DNA of 20,420 nucleotides from a bacterium (GTDB lineage Bacteria > CG2-30-53-67 > CG2-30-70-394), in the NCBI GenBank assembly GCA_024278555.1, contig JAJRSX010000039.1, positions 1 through 20,420 on the forward strand, read 5' to 3'. The notes under the pieces were generated by a model, which was given only the letters and a program-made list of their open reading frames with translations, made no database searches and was not told the origin of the DNA. Positions 5,404 to 19,509 of this stretch are shown piece by piece. Numbering within the stretch: the first letter of the stretch is position 1; each line of letters opens with the position of its first letter. The position numbers were made by a program, and so were the translations under genes.

Positions 5404-5970
5404 GGCGTCACCGGTGCTGCAACACAGTGGGGCGCGGCCCGGAAGGCCAATTCATAGGCTGAGCCGCAAATGGGGCGCGAATGGACGCGAATGGTGGGCA
5501 GGGAAGGTGAGGTGTCACCGGTGCCCCCAACCGCTACGCAGCAGCCTGGAAGGCGATTTCACCACAGAGGCGCAGAGGGGTGGTGGGCCAGGGGGTAAGG
5601 CGCCATCGGTGGAGACAACCAGCGCGCAACGGCCCGGAAGGCGATTTTTTAGCCACGGAACCCACGGAAGGGCACGGAATGTGGGGCCTTCCGTTGGGTT
5701 GGATGAACAACCCGGCCCCCGTGTCTACTCGAAACACGGCAGGCGCCACCTCGTTCCCTTTCTCCCCGCCACGCTCCCTCGCCCCTTCCGTGTGCTTCCG
5801 TGGATTCCGTGGCGAATTTCCTTCCGGGTCGCAACGGCTCCTCGGCCGCACGCCTGGTGACGCCGTAGCTGTGAGGCCATGTCCCTCCGCGTCTTGGCGT
5901 CTCTGCGCGAGGCCCACCTTCAAGGTGGCGACGAAATCTCGTGGTCACCGCCGCTGACGCCTCACCGAGA
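5404..5970. repeat. Nested array of modular leader-plus-payload repeats (588-bp gene-free gap)
   Basis: Three copies of a 44-nt leader start at 5404, 5511 and 5599. Each begins GGYGYCAYCGGTG and ends with GCCYGGAAGGC exactly 33 nt later, without gaps. Each is followed by a different tandem motif: CGCGAATGGA-type units at 5465-5494, CACAGAGGCGCAGAGG at 5561-5579, and CCACGGAA-type units at 5653-5680. Two inverted copies close the array. The CACGGAA payload returns as ccttccgtgtgcttccgtgg at 5784-5803 and continues to 5813, with its leader at 5814-5864. The CAGAG-type payload returns at 5884-5912 with its leader at 5914-5961. The second unit therefore encloses the third as nested palindromes. 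No gene is visible in 5394-5981. Confidence 0.8.
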
Positions 5971-8924: not shown

Positions 8925-9240
8925 GGCAGGGGGGGCATCCACGAAGCCACACGAAGGGCGCTGCGCGCCGACACGAAGGGGGAGGCGGGGCGGTACTTCG
9001 GCGACGCGATCCACGAGGGGATCAGGCAGAAGAGCGGGGCCGCGCAGTGGCCGGTCTTCGTGTGCCTTCGTGGACAACCCAACCGACCGAAGGGCCGGGC
9101 CTCCATAAAGCCTCGTTCGAGACCCAAGCCCCCCTGCGCCTTGGCCTCTCCGCGCGAGATCCCCGGCGGATGATGATGGGGTCGCCGCCCTCATTGCCTT
9201 CGACTCCAGGGGAGGCCGTGATCGTCCGATCTGGGAAGCG
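8925..9240. repeat. CACGAAG-type palindrome with flanking fragments (429-bp gene-free gap)
   Basis: CCACGAAGCCACACGAAG at 8939-8956 is matched by CTTCGTGTGCCTTCGTGG at 9056-9073, its reverse complement at 17 of 18 positions. About 100 bp lies between, including GGCGCTGCGCGCC and one more ACACGAAGG. The loop-side sequence after the right arm (ACAACCCAACCGACCGAAGGGCC) resembles, in reverse, the centre of the 5404-5970 array (GGCCTTCCGTTGGGTTG). A solitary fragment at 9133-9160 resembles, in inverted orientation, the CAGAG-type payload. Apart from the rplU promoter, no gene is seen in 8825-9253. Confidence 0.65.
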
Positions 9241-11814: not shown

Positions 11815-12075
11815 CAGGATTGGGGGGGAGCTGGACCGGGGGGATTGCGTCGCCGGTGGTGAGCCGGGGGACGGCAGCGGCCTGGAAGGCGGGGGGGGAT
11901 CCGCAGATCCACGCAGATCTCCGCAGATCCTTACGGCCACGGAGACCGCCCGTCAGGGGCAACACCGTCGCCGCGGGAGTACCTGCGAGTCACAGCTTCC
12001 ACGGATGGGCATCCAAAAAGATCTGCGTTGATCTGCGCAGAGCTGCGGATAACCCAACCTGCCAGGTGGCACTGC
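11797..12075. repeat. CAGGATTGA 9-mers followed by a GCAGATC-type palindrome with leader
   Basis: Three 9-bp units, CAGGAAGAA, CAGGGTTGA and CAGGATTGG, occupy 11797-11823 across the uvrC stop. A leader like that of the 5404 array follows: GCGTCGCCGGTG at 11847 and GCCTGGAAGGC at 11880-11890. Its payload of 8- to 10-bp units is ATCCGCAG, ATCCACGCAG, ATCTCCGCAG at 11899-11930. The inverted arm at 12021-12050 reads on the minus strand ATCCGCAG, CTCTGCGCAG, ATCAACGCAG. Its leader has ACCTGGCAGGT (plus 12057-12067). Confidence 0.75.
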
Positions 12076-12570
12076 AATCCGGGAGATCGCGGCGGCCGCC
12101 GCAGCATGGGAACCACGGAGTTTTCCCGACCCTCGGGTGATCTCCACATAGGTGGGGGGGAGGGAGCCACGGGGTCACCCTGTGCCCCCCCTTCGAGGAT
12201 CAGCGGAAACCGCCTTCCAGGCTTGCACCGTGATCACCTCGTGACTCCCTCGACCCTGTTGGCGGTCTCCCCTCCCCCCGGGATCTTGCCCTCTTTCCGG
12301 TTGCCCATCGCCGGTCATGAGCTAAGGGCAGTCTCCATCTCTTGAGATGACGGCGTCGGTCGGCTGAAGCCGACCCTACGGTCTGGTAACCCTATCTTGT
12401 TTCCGCTGATCCCCTTCGTGCTCTTCGTGGCCCTCGTGGTTTTGTCCGGTGGAAGGGGGTTCCCCGGAGGGCAGCAGATGGAGCCGACGATCGTGGGGTA
12501 GCCCCATCGTCTTGACATGGGCGCCCCGACGAGGGGTGATGGGGCCGACTCGCAACTCGGAGGTGTGGCG
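12076..12570. repeat. Degenerate repeat remnants upstream of gmhA
   Basis: No gene is visible. GGGGTCACCCTGTGCCCCC at 12170-12188 resembles the start of the modular leader. An inverted GCCTGGAAGGC mini-hairpin lies at 12212-12222. GATCAGCGGAAAC at 12198-12210 is inverted at 12399-12411. The latter abuts inverted CCACGAAG-type units at 12412-12440. GTAGGGTCGGCTTCAGCC on the minus strand (12362-12379) heads a perfect GTCGGC-TTCA-GCCGAC hairpin at 12359-12374. At 12486-12511 GACGAT pairs with ATCGTC around GGGG/CCCC, a strong hairpin, followed by TTGACA at 12512; no good -10 follows. Confidence 0.6.
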
Positions 12571-17822: not shown

Positions 17823-17903
17823 CGTGGCTCCTTGGGGGTGCGTCTGTCGGCCAGCCCCAAGTCTATCGCACCCGCCACTCGGCGCACCACGCGGCGGTCT
17901 CTG

Positions 17904-18683
17904 TTACCGCATCGCCGGGTGGCAGCGGTCGCAGTCGTCCAGGGGGAAGCTCACCCGCAGGTGGCAGAGGCCGCAGAACTTGCCCTGGAGGTTGTAGCGC
18001 ATGGAGAAGTGGGCGGTGGTCTTCTTCTTCACGTTGAAGATGTCCGGGTGGCAGTTGGAGCAGTCGAGCCACAGGTTGTGGTCGGCGTGGGAGAAGAAGG
18101 CGGGGGGGATCATCGTCCAGCCGGCATCGAGCTTGAGGTCCTTGTCGTAGGCGATCGCCTTTGGTGGCGTCTCGAGGAGGGTGCGTTTCGGGTGGATCTT
18201 TCCCTCCTTGACCGCCCGTACCCAGTCGATGTTGTTGCCGTACTGGGCCTTCGGCATGGTCTCGGCGAAGGTGTTGAACCTGTCGGCGCCGGCGGTGAGG
18301 TCGCCGGTGTGGCACCGGTCGCAGTTCTCCTTCGTGTGGCCGAAGGCCTCCTTGCCGTCGTGGCAGGCGCCGCAGTACTCGCCGTGGCGGTTGCGCGCCT
18401 CGGTGATCTCAGTGGTCTCGAGCTCCATGTTGAAGCCGAGCTCCACGTGGCAGACGCGGCAGGTGTACTTGGCCCGGTGGAGCCAGTGGGAGAAGATGAC
18501 GGGCTTTACCCCGTTGGCCTCCGCAACGCGGTTGAGGAGGCGGTTGCCGTAGAGGGCCGGGTCGGGCAGGGGCGGGGTCTTGAAGTACTTACCCCCCGCC
18601 GCCCTCCCGGGGGCAAGGAGCACCGCCAGGAGGAGCACAGCGAGGGTGGTGGTCGTGCGGTGGTGCATCAGAGGACGTCCCAT
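17904..18683 (-). CDS. Periplasmic hexaheme c7/c3-type cytochrome (second of pair)
   Basis: 259 residues from ATG 18683, which shares its A with the upstream stop (TGATG), implying coupled translation. Signal peptide: hydrophobic LAVLLLAVLLA at about 14-24, cleavage near GRAAG. Six CxxCH sites start at C75, C104, C121, C208, C237 and C251, arranged three plus three, with extra His in FSHWLHR and FSHADHN as likely axial ligands. YGNNIDWVRA is shared with the first gene. This matches the triheme c7-type repeat of anaerobic respiratory cytochromes. It likely carries electrons in the periplasm; the partner is unknown. Clearly a paralogue of the adjacent gene. Ends in TAA, the only one in the window. 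Confidence 0.92.
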   Translation of the reverse strand: MGRPLMHHRTTTTLAVLLLAVLLAPGRAAGGKYFKTPPLPDPALYGNRLLNRVAEANGVKPVIFSHWLHRAKYTCRVCHVELGFNMELETTEITEARNRHGEYCGACHDGKEAFGHTKENCDRCHTGDLTAGADRFNTFAETMPKAQYGNNIDWVRAVKEGKIHPKRTLLETPPKAIAYDKDLKLDAGWTMIPPAFFSHADHNLWLDCSNCHPDIFNVKKKTTAHFSMRYNLQGKFCGLCHLRVSFPLDDCDRCHPAMR

Positions 18684-19486
18684 CAGAAGACGTCTTTGGT
18701 GTGGCAGAGGCGGCAGTCGAAGTTCACCGGGAAGGAGACCTTGTCGTGGCAGGCGCCGCAGAACCGTCCTTCGAAGATATCCTGCATGGTGAACTTGGTG
18801 ACCCCCTTCTCCACCCCGAAGATGTCCGGGTGGCACATCTCACAGCCGTTCCATACCGCGTGCTTGGTGTGGGAGAAGACGATCTCCGGCATGTTGAACT
18901 CACGGGCGTGGATGACCACCTCGCCGGCGTAGCGGATCGGCTTGCGCTTGCGGGTGACCCCCGGGAGCTCGTCCTTCAGGTGCAGCAGCCCCTGCGCCTC
19001 GGCGGCGAGCCAGTCGATGTGGTTGCCATAGGCGCTCTTGGGCAGCCCCTTGGTGGCGGCGTAGAAGTCCGCCTTCGGGGCGTCGGGCTTGCCCACCGAG
19101 TGGCACCGGTCGCACTGTTTGACCGGCTTGCTGGTGAGCCCCTTGCGCTCCTGCCGCTGCCACCCGAAGGCCTCTTTGCCGTTGTGGCAGGCGCCGCAGT
19201 AGAGGTCGTGGCGGTTGTCCTGCTCGCGCACGCCGGTCTCGCCGGCGCGCATGGCAAAGCCGAGATCGACGTGGCAGAGGCGGCAGGTGTACTGCATCCG
19301 GTGGTTCCAGTGGTCGAAGACCACCGGCGCCACCTTCGCCTTGGTAGCGTAGGTGTCCATCACCACCCGGCCGTACGCCTCCGGGCGGGGGATCCGCTTG
19401 CGCACCCCGAAGGTCTCCGCCCCTACCGTTCCCGCCGCAACGGCGGCAACCGCCACCGTTGCCACAACCATCGCGATCCGTCTCAT
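18683..19486 (-). CDS. Periplasmic hexaheme c7/c3-type cytochrome (first of pair)
   Basis: 267 residues from ATG 19486 with GGAGGC a few bases upstream. Signal peptide: hydrophobic residues 6-22 and probable cleavage after VGA (residue 23). Six CxxCH sites start at C68, C97, C125, C215, C243 and C258, three plus three, the same order as in the second gene. FDHWNHR and FSHTKHA supply extra histidines; CGACHNGKEAFG and CHPDIFGVEKG are matched in the second gene by CGACHDGKEAFG and CHPDIFNVKKK. YGNHIDW is shared. All hemes are CxxCH, so bis-His low-potential hemes are expected. Likely periplasmic electron transfer in anaerobic or metal respiration; no reductase or quinol oxidase is in the window. 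Confidence 0.93.
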   Translation of the reverse strand: MRRIAMVVATVAVAAVAAGTVGAETFGVRKRIPRPEAYGRVVMDTYATKAKVAPVVFDHWNHRMQYTCRLCHVDLGFAMRAGETGVREQDNRHDLYCGACHNGKEAFGWQRQERKGLTSKPVKQCDRCHSVGKPDAPKADFYAATKGLPKSAYGNHIDWLAAEAQGLLHLKDELPGVTRKRKPIRYAGEVVIHAREFNMPEIVFSHTKHAVWNGCEMCHPDIFGVEKGVTKFTMQDIFEGRFCGACHDKVSFPVNFDCRLCHTKDVF

Positions 19487-19509
19487 GGCCGCCTCCCTGG
19501 GGTCTGGGT

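Follow-up and report, generated by a model that had tools for sequence, protein, structure and literature searches.

The window analysed here, a bacterial DNA stretch of 20,420 nt, contains at 5404-5961 a nest of repeated sequences which fills the gap between two convergent genes, approaching the two gene ends to within ~11 nt and 20 nt. The features of the nest and its flanks are as follows.

5393: stop codon of the upstream ORF, which has a PD-(D/E)XK-nuclease domain
5404-5447, plus strand: leader 1, beginning 11 nt past that stop codon
5476-5494, plus strand: payload B, a CGCGAATGGA tandem, unpaired in the nest
5511-5554, plus strand: leader 2
5560-5580, plus strand: left arm of payload C, CACC-ACAGAGGCGCAGAGG
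5599-5642, plus strand: leader 3
5649-5679, plus strand: left arm of payload A, CCACGGAACCCACGGAAGGGCACGGAA
5680-5785, no strand: core of the inner A mini-element, ~105 nt, common to the genome's other A elements
5786-5816, minus strand: right (inverted) arm of payload A, complementary to the left arm at 27/31 positions
5815-5864, minus strand: leader 3', inverted and diverged (leader model match, E 0.0015)
5885-5912, minus strand: right (inverted) arm of payload C, or C', which reads CCTCGCGCAGAGACGCCAAGACGCGGAG on the minus strand
5917-5961, minus strand: leader 2', inverted
5982: end of the next gene, which has AA_kinase and PUA domains and is glutamate 5-kinase-like

The three 44-nt leaders align without gaps, and the identities given in a first-pass annotation of the sequence (30/44 between the leaders at 5404 and 5511, 35/49 between those at 5511 and 5599) were reproduced exactly, with a further 31/44 between those at 5404 and 5599; the best other ungapped 44-nt match to the leader at 5511 on either strand of the window reaches 26/44. 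Each leader is followed, as had been claimed, by a different short tandem payload, and all three payloads were located (CGCGAATGGA x1.9 at 5476-5494, CACAGAGGCGCAGAGG at 5564-5580 and a CCACGGAA-type unit x3 at 5653-5679), each with two or three units and no more. Leaders 2 and 3 and their payloads recur in inverted form and, as had been described, in reverse order; these copies are present downstream as the A arm, leader 3', the C' arm and leader 2', while payload B has no inverted partner in the nest. The folding check proposed for the region gave a divided result: folded as RNA, the nest (592 nt) is more stable than 100/100 dinucleotide shuffles (z -4.1), and the inner element folded as DNA gives a z of -6.0, but the leader itself has no conserved hairpin, since RNAalifold gives 3 pairs only and a stem-partner swap test yields neither an excess nor covariation. 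Because strong folding is expected of any inverted repeat, these values leave the choice between a DNA and an RNA role undecided. A search of Rfam gave no match over the gathering score anywhere in the window.

Comparison of the nest with its own 3.06-Mb genome by BLAST produced 86 matches. A leader model built from 40 copies, with which 150 of 8,607 candidates were scored, places the leader at 91 or more sites with E<0.01, at least ~74 of them with E<0.001, and these counts are lower bounds because the scoring covered only those 150 candidates; iterated nhmmer on selected stretches of the genome gave 94 leader places. The abundance of the nest repeats in the genome is far beyond chance. The model matches that number at least 74 in this genome fall to 2 weak ones in a congener and 0 in six sister-family genomes, and the leader is a lineage-specific dispersed repeat, not a universal one.

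The genome-wide profile scan suggested in the first-pass annotation shows that the leader is neither confined to the nest nor restricted to one payload. Among 92 near-complete leaders, 85 run directly into a recognised payload belonging to one of at least six classes: A (CACGGAA) in 44 cases, C (CACAGAG/CGCAGAG) in 14, D (CGCAAAG/CGCGAAG) in 13, B (CGCGAAT) in 10, E (CGCAGAT) in 3 and K (CACGGAG) in 1. This bears out the proposal of a modular element in which the leader is constant and the payload changes. The swapping of payloads is borne out in part, in that many leader pairs which are 75-91% identical have differing payloads, but in 57/85 cases a leader and its closest relative agree in payload (shuffled mean 28, max 44), and the excess over the shuffles indicates that leader and payload are in part inherited together. 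The converse relationship is looser. Leaders are mostly followed by a payload, but when 15 distinct arrays of G-ending words were sampled regardless of leader, only 5 had one (in 3 of the 5, its proximal half only), and the other two-thirds (10/15) have other outer sequences, often ending alike in TGGAAGG..ATTT-CACC.

The payloads, which had been described as different tandem repeats, proved to be dialects of a single word and not unrelated sequences: nearly all of them consist of 2-4 tandem copies of the degenerate word CRCVRAD with a period of 8-11 nt, the G-class word (AGGATCAGCGGAAA) being the sole exception to C-R-C-V-R-A-D. Payload arrays, apart from the unpaired B, are mostly paired with an inverted arm around a core of ~100 nt, and the A elements have in addition to their common core a diverged right leader. 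Three other elements are present in the window.

8941-9075, no strand: F-class pair, CCACGAAGCCACACGAAGG with an inverted arm at 9056-9071
11847-12045, plus strand: E-class element, consisting of a leader (11847-11890), a CGCAGATCCA arm (11899-11930) and an inverted arm (~12018-12045)
12196-12414, no strand: G-class element with AGGATCAGCGGAAA inverted ends

The leader at 11847-11890 is the fourth of the window, separate from those of the nest, and its payload (CGCAGATCCA, E class) again differs. In the family of the 12196-12414 element, ~20 copies were aligned, 81-94% identical, and their right end (CCGCTGATCCTC) is precise. In most copies the arm beside CGCCTTCCAGGC is of the CACAGAG type, whereas in the window copy its place is taken by the other end (AGGATCAGCGGAAA) in inverted form, which is a literal exchange of payloads, CACAGAG arm against AGGATCAGCGGAAA arm, beside the same leader end. 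Nesting goes further elsewhere, as in the three-shell arrangement F-D-A-A'-D'-F' at L042. The unit that emerges is a lineage-specific outer leader, an arm of 2-4 tandem CRCVRAD words, a core and an inverted arm. In the full form the core is a gene of ~120 aa belonging to the GxxExxY family, and in the mini form it is a gene-less segment of ~35-105 nt; the mini forms are dispersed, may be nested or arranged in tandem, and have arm words that vary while the leader sequence stays.

Repeats of this kind are found near GxxExxY genes and near genes for four-helix proteins, which provided the starting lead for tests of gene association. In the genome of the window, 4/4 GxxExxY (PDDEXK_3) loci lie between inverted C-class arms, and the arm-flanked genes score 150, 145 and 139 bits against TIGR04256 (cut-off 35) and also exceed the Pfam cut-off of PF13366. 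The association of an enzyme gene is with the payload arms and not, as the idea of an enzyme that recognises the leader would have it, with the leader. Word patterns drawn up from this genome were then tested on others, using a scan of named genomes that gave 80 GxxExxY loci from at least 12 phyla including archaea, a biased sample in that the loci are the best matches to the local protein. In the 79 testable loci, inward-facing arms were found upstream of 60, downstream of 66 and on both sides of 52, with the wrong orientation on both sides in 5; for 395 shifted control windows on the same contigs the corresponding counts were 11 upstream, 12 downstream and 0 on both sides. The commonest word is identical in both arms of 42/52 loci (shuffled mean 11.6, max 22). 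Under the same strict rule, arms on both sides were found at 14/30 loci of a replicate set chosen by family model, and further loci of that set have CGCAGAT or CGCCGAT words. As the alternative gene partner, the four-helix IVP gene was rejected, CRCVRAD arms being present at 0 of 30 IVP loci.

The association extends to whole genomes. Across 241 genomes, the occurrence of three or more array matches tabulated against the presence of GxxExxY gives 30/5/30/176 (Fisher p=1e-16), or 25/3/29/176 (p=1.4e-15) outside the window's own class, and the reversed word pattern is almost absent. For the CRCGGAW words of the A class, a pattern with a higher background than that of the first array pattern, GxxExxY is present in 13/14 genomes with at least 20 matches (p=5e-8). 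No A-, B- or G-class arms were seen around a GxxExxY gene, and what ties the A class to GxxExxY is confined to the shared leader, the common grammar of the words and co-occurrence in genomes. In the window's own class, the genomes G005 and G007 have 30 and 9 word arrays respectively and no GxxExxY, for which gene loss, incomplete assembly or another mobiliser are alternative accounts. Spread by phages or plasmids was considered and rejected, GxxExxY having been found in 8/72,556 plasmids and 0/50,697 phages.

Evidence that palindromes without a gene represent forms of the GxxExxY element is most direct at a sister-family locus, L330, at which a mini element (756-865), a full element (866-1337) and a second mini element (1338-1445) lie side by side with matching ends. 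All three copies have an alike outer TTTACTGAGAATTTTGAACC sequence and a CGCAGAGGACGCGGAGTACCGCAGAGG-type arm, but the GxxExxY ORF is present in the middle copy only, and in the outer copies ~35-40 nt stand in its place. The characters by which MITEs are recognised, namely terminal inverted repeats, the lack of a transposase gene and many dispersed copies, are all found in the mini-elements. Gene-bearing partners with the same ends, which may or may not be autonomous, are seen both at L330 and in the C-class arms around GxxExxY in the window's own genome. A search for recent GxxExxY paralogues that would reveal exact ends yielded none: when one genome has several copies, these are mostly only 66-71% identical, or tandem, and full elements therefore do not have the look of recent activity; G004 has two identical copies, but with 2,701 nt in common they look like an assembly duplicate. 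At L317 and L318 (G147:C1:786000-810000), about ten GxxExxY matches occur in roughly 40 kb, several of them in near-identical tandem repeats.

Comparison of the window with the congener shows turnover of the intergenic sequence. The 3' side of uvrC extends over ~740 nt in the window and ~100 nt in the congener, which thus has no counterpart downstream of uvrC to ~640 nt of element-bearing DNA, a difference in size only; at the gap of the F element the congener has a different palindrome, GTAGAAAGTAG, and at the site of the nest it has an unrelated tandem element of ~305 bp with CGCAAAG words. No exact empty site or target duplication was obtained from this comparison at the nest or at uvrC: no junction is readable at the nest because the congener's gap holds a different element, and exact junctions are otherwise obscured because the intergenic DNA is too diverged. 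The intergenic location of the elements, the filling of a convergent gap almost to both gene ends, and the presence of palindromes in the same gap of the congener would suit transcription terminators or structural, REP-like elements which have a chromosomal function and have been multiplied by recombination without any dedicated enzyme. Comparable multicopy repeats have been read as regulatory in the available text of the Geobacter genome papers (PMC2700814, PMC2996986). This explanation is nevertheless quite improbable, because the sequences at the same place in congeners are unrelated, mini and full forms with matching ends adjoin at L330, and the tie to the GxxExxY family is strong. The multicopy sequences treated in those papers, from Geobacter metallireducens and G. 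bemidjiensis, resemble the present elements in forming intergenic families of palindromes or short direct repeats, several of which share one gap above chance and one set of which has inverted ends; they differ in that the text available for them describes putative regulatory sequences with no link to GxxExxY or word arms, although the supplements may include relatives.

The arrangement of a small gene between inverted repeats which also disperse without the gene is known from the REP/BIME-RAYT and TIRYT systems (PMC3733652), whose repeats are likewise intergenic, lineage-specific in sequence and often present as dimers or clusters. A rival account is that the mini-elements are MITE-like elements moved by a conventional host transposase (Y1/RAYT-like or DDE), with GxxExxY as a passenger or as a defence or addiction gene that uses the same ends. 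These systems show that such an arrangement exists, and the window's own genome has four Y1_Tnp genes, one of which (L123) is flanked by word arrays left and right, but the words differ. The other three Y1_Tnp loci, however, are armless, the best leader match being E 0.79, and the arms around GxxExxY are correctly oriented in at least 12 phyla. We consider transposition of this kind unlikely, and a RAYT/TIRYT element as such was rejected, since 0/4 Y1_Tnp loci have a leader match below E 0.79 and the arrays at the one locus that has them are unmatched. The gene is also of a different kind, encoding a PD-(D/E)XK protein here and a Y1 tyrosine transposase in those systems. The leader begins with CGTC, TGTC or CCTC and in this respect resembles the CGTC-tagged REPs, but this identification also fails: the stem of 8-9 bp that follows the tag in a REP is absent (at least 7 pairs in 1/82 leaders only), there is no covariation, and the arms are tandem degenerate words which change while the leader stays.

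The protein itself gives the elements a candidate enzyme. An AlphaFold2 model of GxxExxY (pLDDT 94.8) has a compact PD-(D/E)XK fold, for which the closest solved structure is the Cas4 protein SSO0001 (Foldseek E 2.6e-4; VIA Z 9.6, rmsd 4.9, 104 residues), followed by restriction enzymes and the archaeal Holliday-junction resolvase Hjc (Z 7.0, rmsd 3.2, 86 residues); a Z below 8 may reflect merely a common arrangement. In 32 GxxExxY sequences E23, D63, K75 and Q87 are invariant and E73 is nearly so (at least 90%), so that GxxExxY has both the core fold and the conserved D, ExK and Q residues by which the PD-(D/E)XK superfamily is defined. The model and these residues lead to the prediction that GxxExxY acts as a Cas4/RecB-like nuclease, and it is a candidate mobiliser of the elements.

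We conclude, with a probability of roughly 0.6, that the nest at 5404-5961 is made up of MITE-like mini-elements, the relatives of a small and widespread element which in its full form encodes GxxExxY. The best reading of the mini-elements is that they are non-autonomous relatives of the GxxExxY elements which have been inserted into one another, possibly by transposition. A mechanism can be proposed in which pairing of the two arms, in single-stranded DNA or in RNA, would produce a hairpin or cruciform; the predicted nuclease would cut these structures and so mobilise the full copies and also, acting in trans, the mini ones. One arm might then be turned into a copy of the other by repair or fold-back copying, so that the arms would stay matched even as the word drifts or is swapped, and insertion near or inside earlier copies, as preferred targets, would build nested palindromes in intergenic gaps. 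The mobilisation could also be carried out by an enzyme other than GxxExxY. The tie between the repeats and GxxExxY gives the repeats a likely origin and the protein a testable role, it explains the nested multi-payload palindromes of the window, and it suggests a mobile DNA family of which little is known, together with a candidate enzyme. To our knowledge, short-word repeats such as CACAGAGACACAGAG, which recur in bacterial intergenic DNA, have had no explanation. In the literature searched, a body exclusive of bioRxiv, subscription journals and supplements, the association of GxxExxY with word arms is not described; GxxExxY is mentioned in the accessible parts of it merely as a neighbour of reverse transcriptase, and the accessions TIGR04256 and PF13366 and six repeat strings occur in unrelated contexts only.

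The word-by-word matching of the arms in 42/52 GxxExxY loci and the strong folding of the nest would also be expected if the arms act as RNA, with a stem in the transcript being removed by RNase III or a similar enzyme, as happens in 23S rRNA intervening sequences, so that pairing is selected for and insertions do little harm. A point in favour of this account is that a parallel system with inverted short-word arms surrounds the gene for IVP, the 23S rRNA intervening sequence protein. The elements of the window, however, are intergenic, and one lies in a convergent gap, where there is no transcript that needs to be rescued; matching of the arms is, moreover, equally expected from DNA hairpins. 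An RNA role thus seems rather doubtful, and we retain the reading of the nest as mini-elements related to the GxxExxY element.

The IVP loci are of interest in their own right. The TIGR02436 loci of other genomes (L285-L314) and one in the window's own genome (L115:1270-1654) have their own inverted arrays of words of ~7 nt, among them GGCATAA, GTAGCGA, GTTAACA, GACTAGG and GGTAAAA; 21/58 IVP flanks are strongly tandem, 15 of the 21 at lag 7, and the inverted-flank score exceeds 99% of the control in 23/29 cases. The 23S rRNA intervening sequences with IVP and TAACTGA heptamers (PMC4990558, PMC4679880) resemble the present elements in having a small ORF between inverted ends, and the dispersed IVP genes analysed here resemble them in their inverted word arrays, but the gene family is another one, as is the word grammar. 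The IVP arrays form a parallel system, perhaps related to the TAACTGA heptamers (PMC4679880).

GxxExxY and the IVP four-helix proteins are both common small "hypothetical" proteins. A more general proposal, which is tentative and which we hold to be possible rather than probable, is that there is, across bacteria and in some archaea, a class of mobile DNA which has no known transposase or recombinase and in which a single Cas4/RecB-like PD-(D/E)XK nuclease of ~120 aa (GxxExxY) would act on hairpins or cruciforms formed by inverted word arms. The words could be rewritten as long as the arms match, the ends would be recognised by structure and period instead of by a fixed sequence, and the unrelated IVP four-helix protein would run a parallel system with 7-nt words. 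If it is true that the nuclease moves the elements, then this would represent a principle for mobile elements whereby each end matches the other and not a fixed recognition sequence.

Dispersed intergenic elements with short inverted ends and an internal tandem repeat with a "leader" and a "tail" have been described as the BrickBuilt MITE of Porphyromonas gingivalis (PMC4596501), but BrickBuilt has a single repeat, of 23 nt, and belongs to a single species, whereas the elements described here have many words obeying one grammar, occur across phyla and are tied to a gene family. A likeness to CRISPR arises in the sister-family genomes, which have tandem modules every 61-62 nt, each made up of a constant linker (~37 nt) and a changing 24-nt word payload. 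The identification as a CRISPR array was rejected, because a single word grammar governs the changing part and the linkers vary; in other elements, moreover, the payload has an inverted arm as its pairing partner, the modules are nested and inverted, and no foreign-derived spacers were evident in the 61-62-nt modules. Such modules, found for example at L239:500-700, L241:653-989 and L238:1921-2129, could be taken for CRISPR arrays by annotation pipelines. Direct repeats of a different nature are seen on the minus strand of the window at 17900-19500, where repeated coding sequence with CxxCH-type heme motifs probably represents several multiheme cytochromes in a row.
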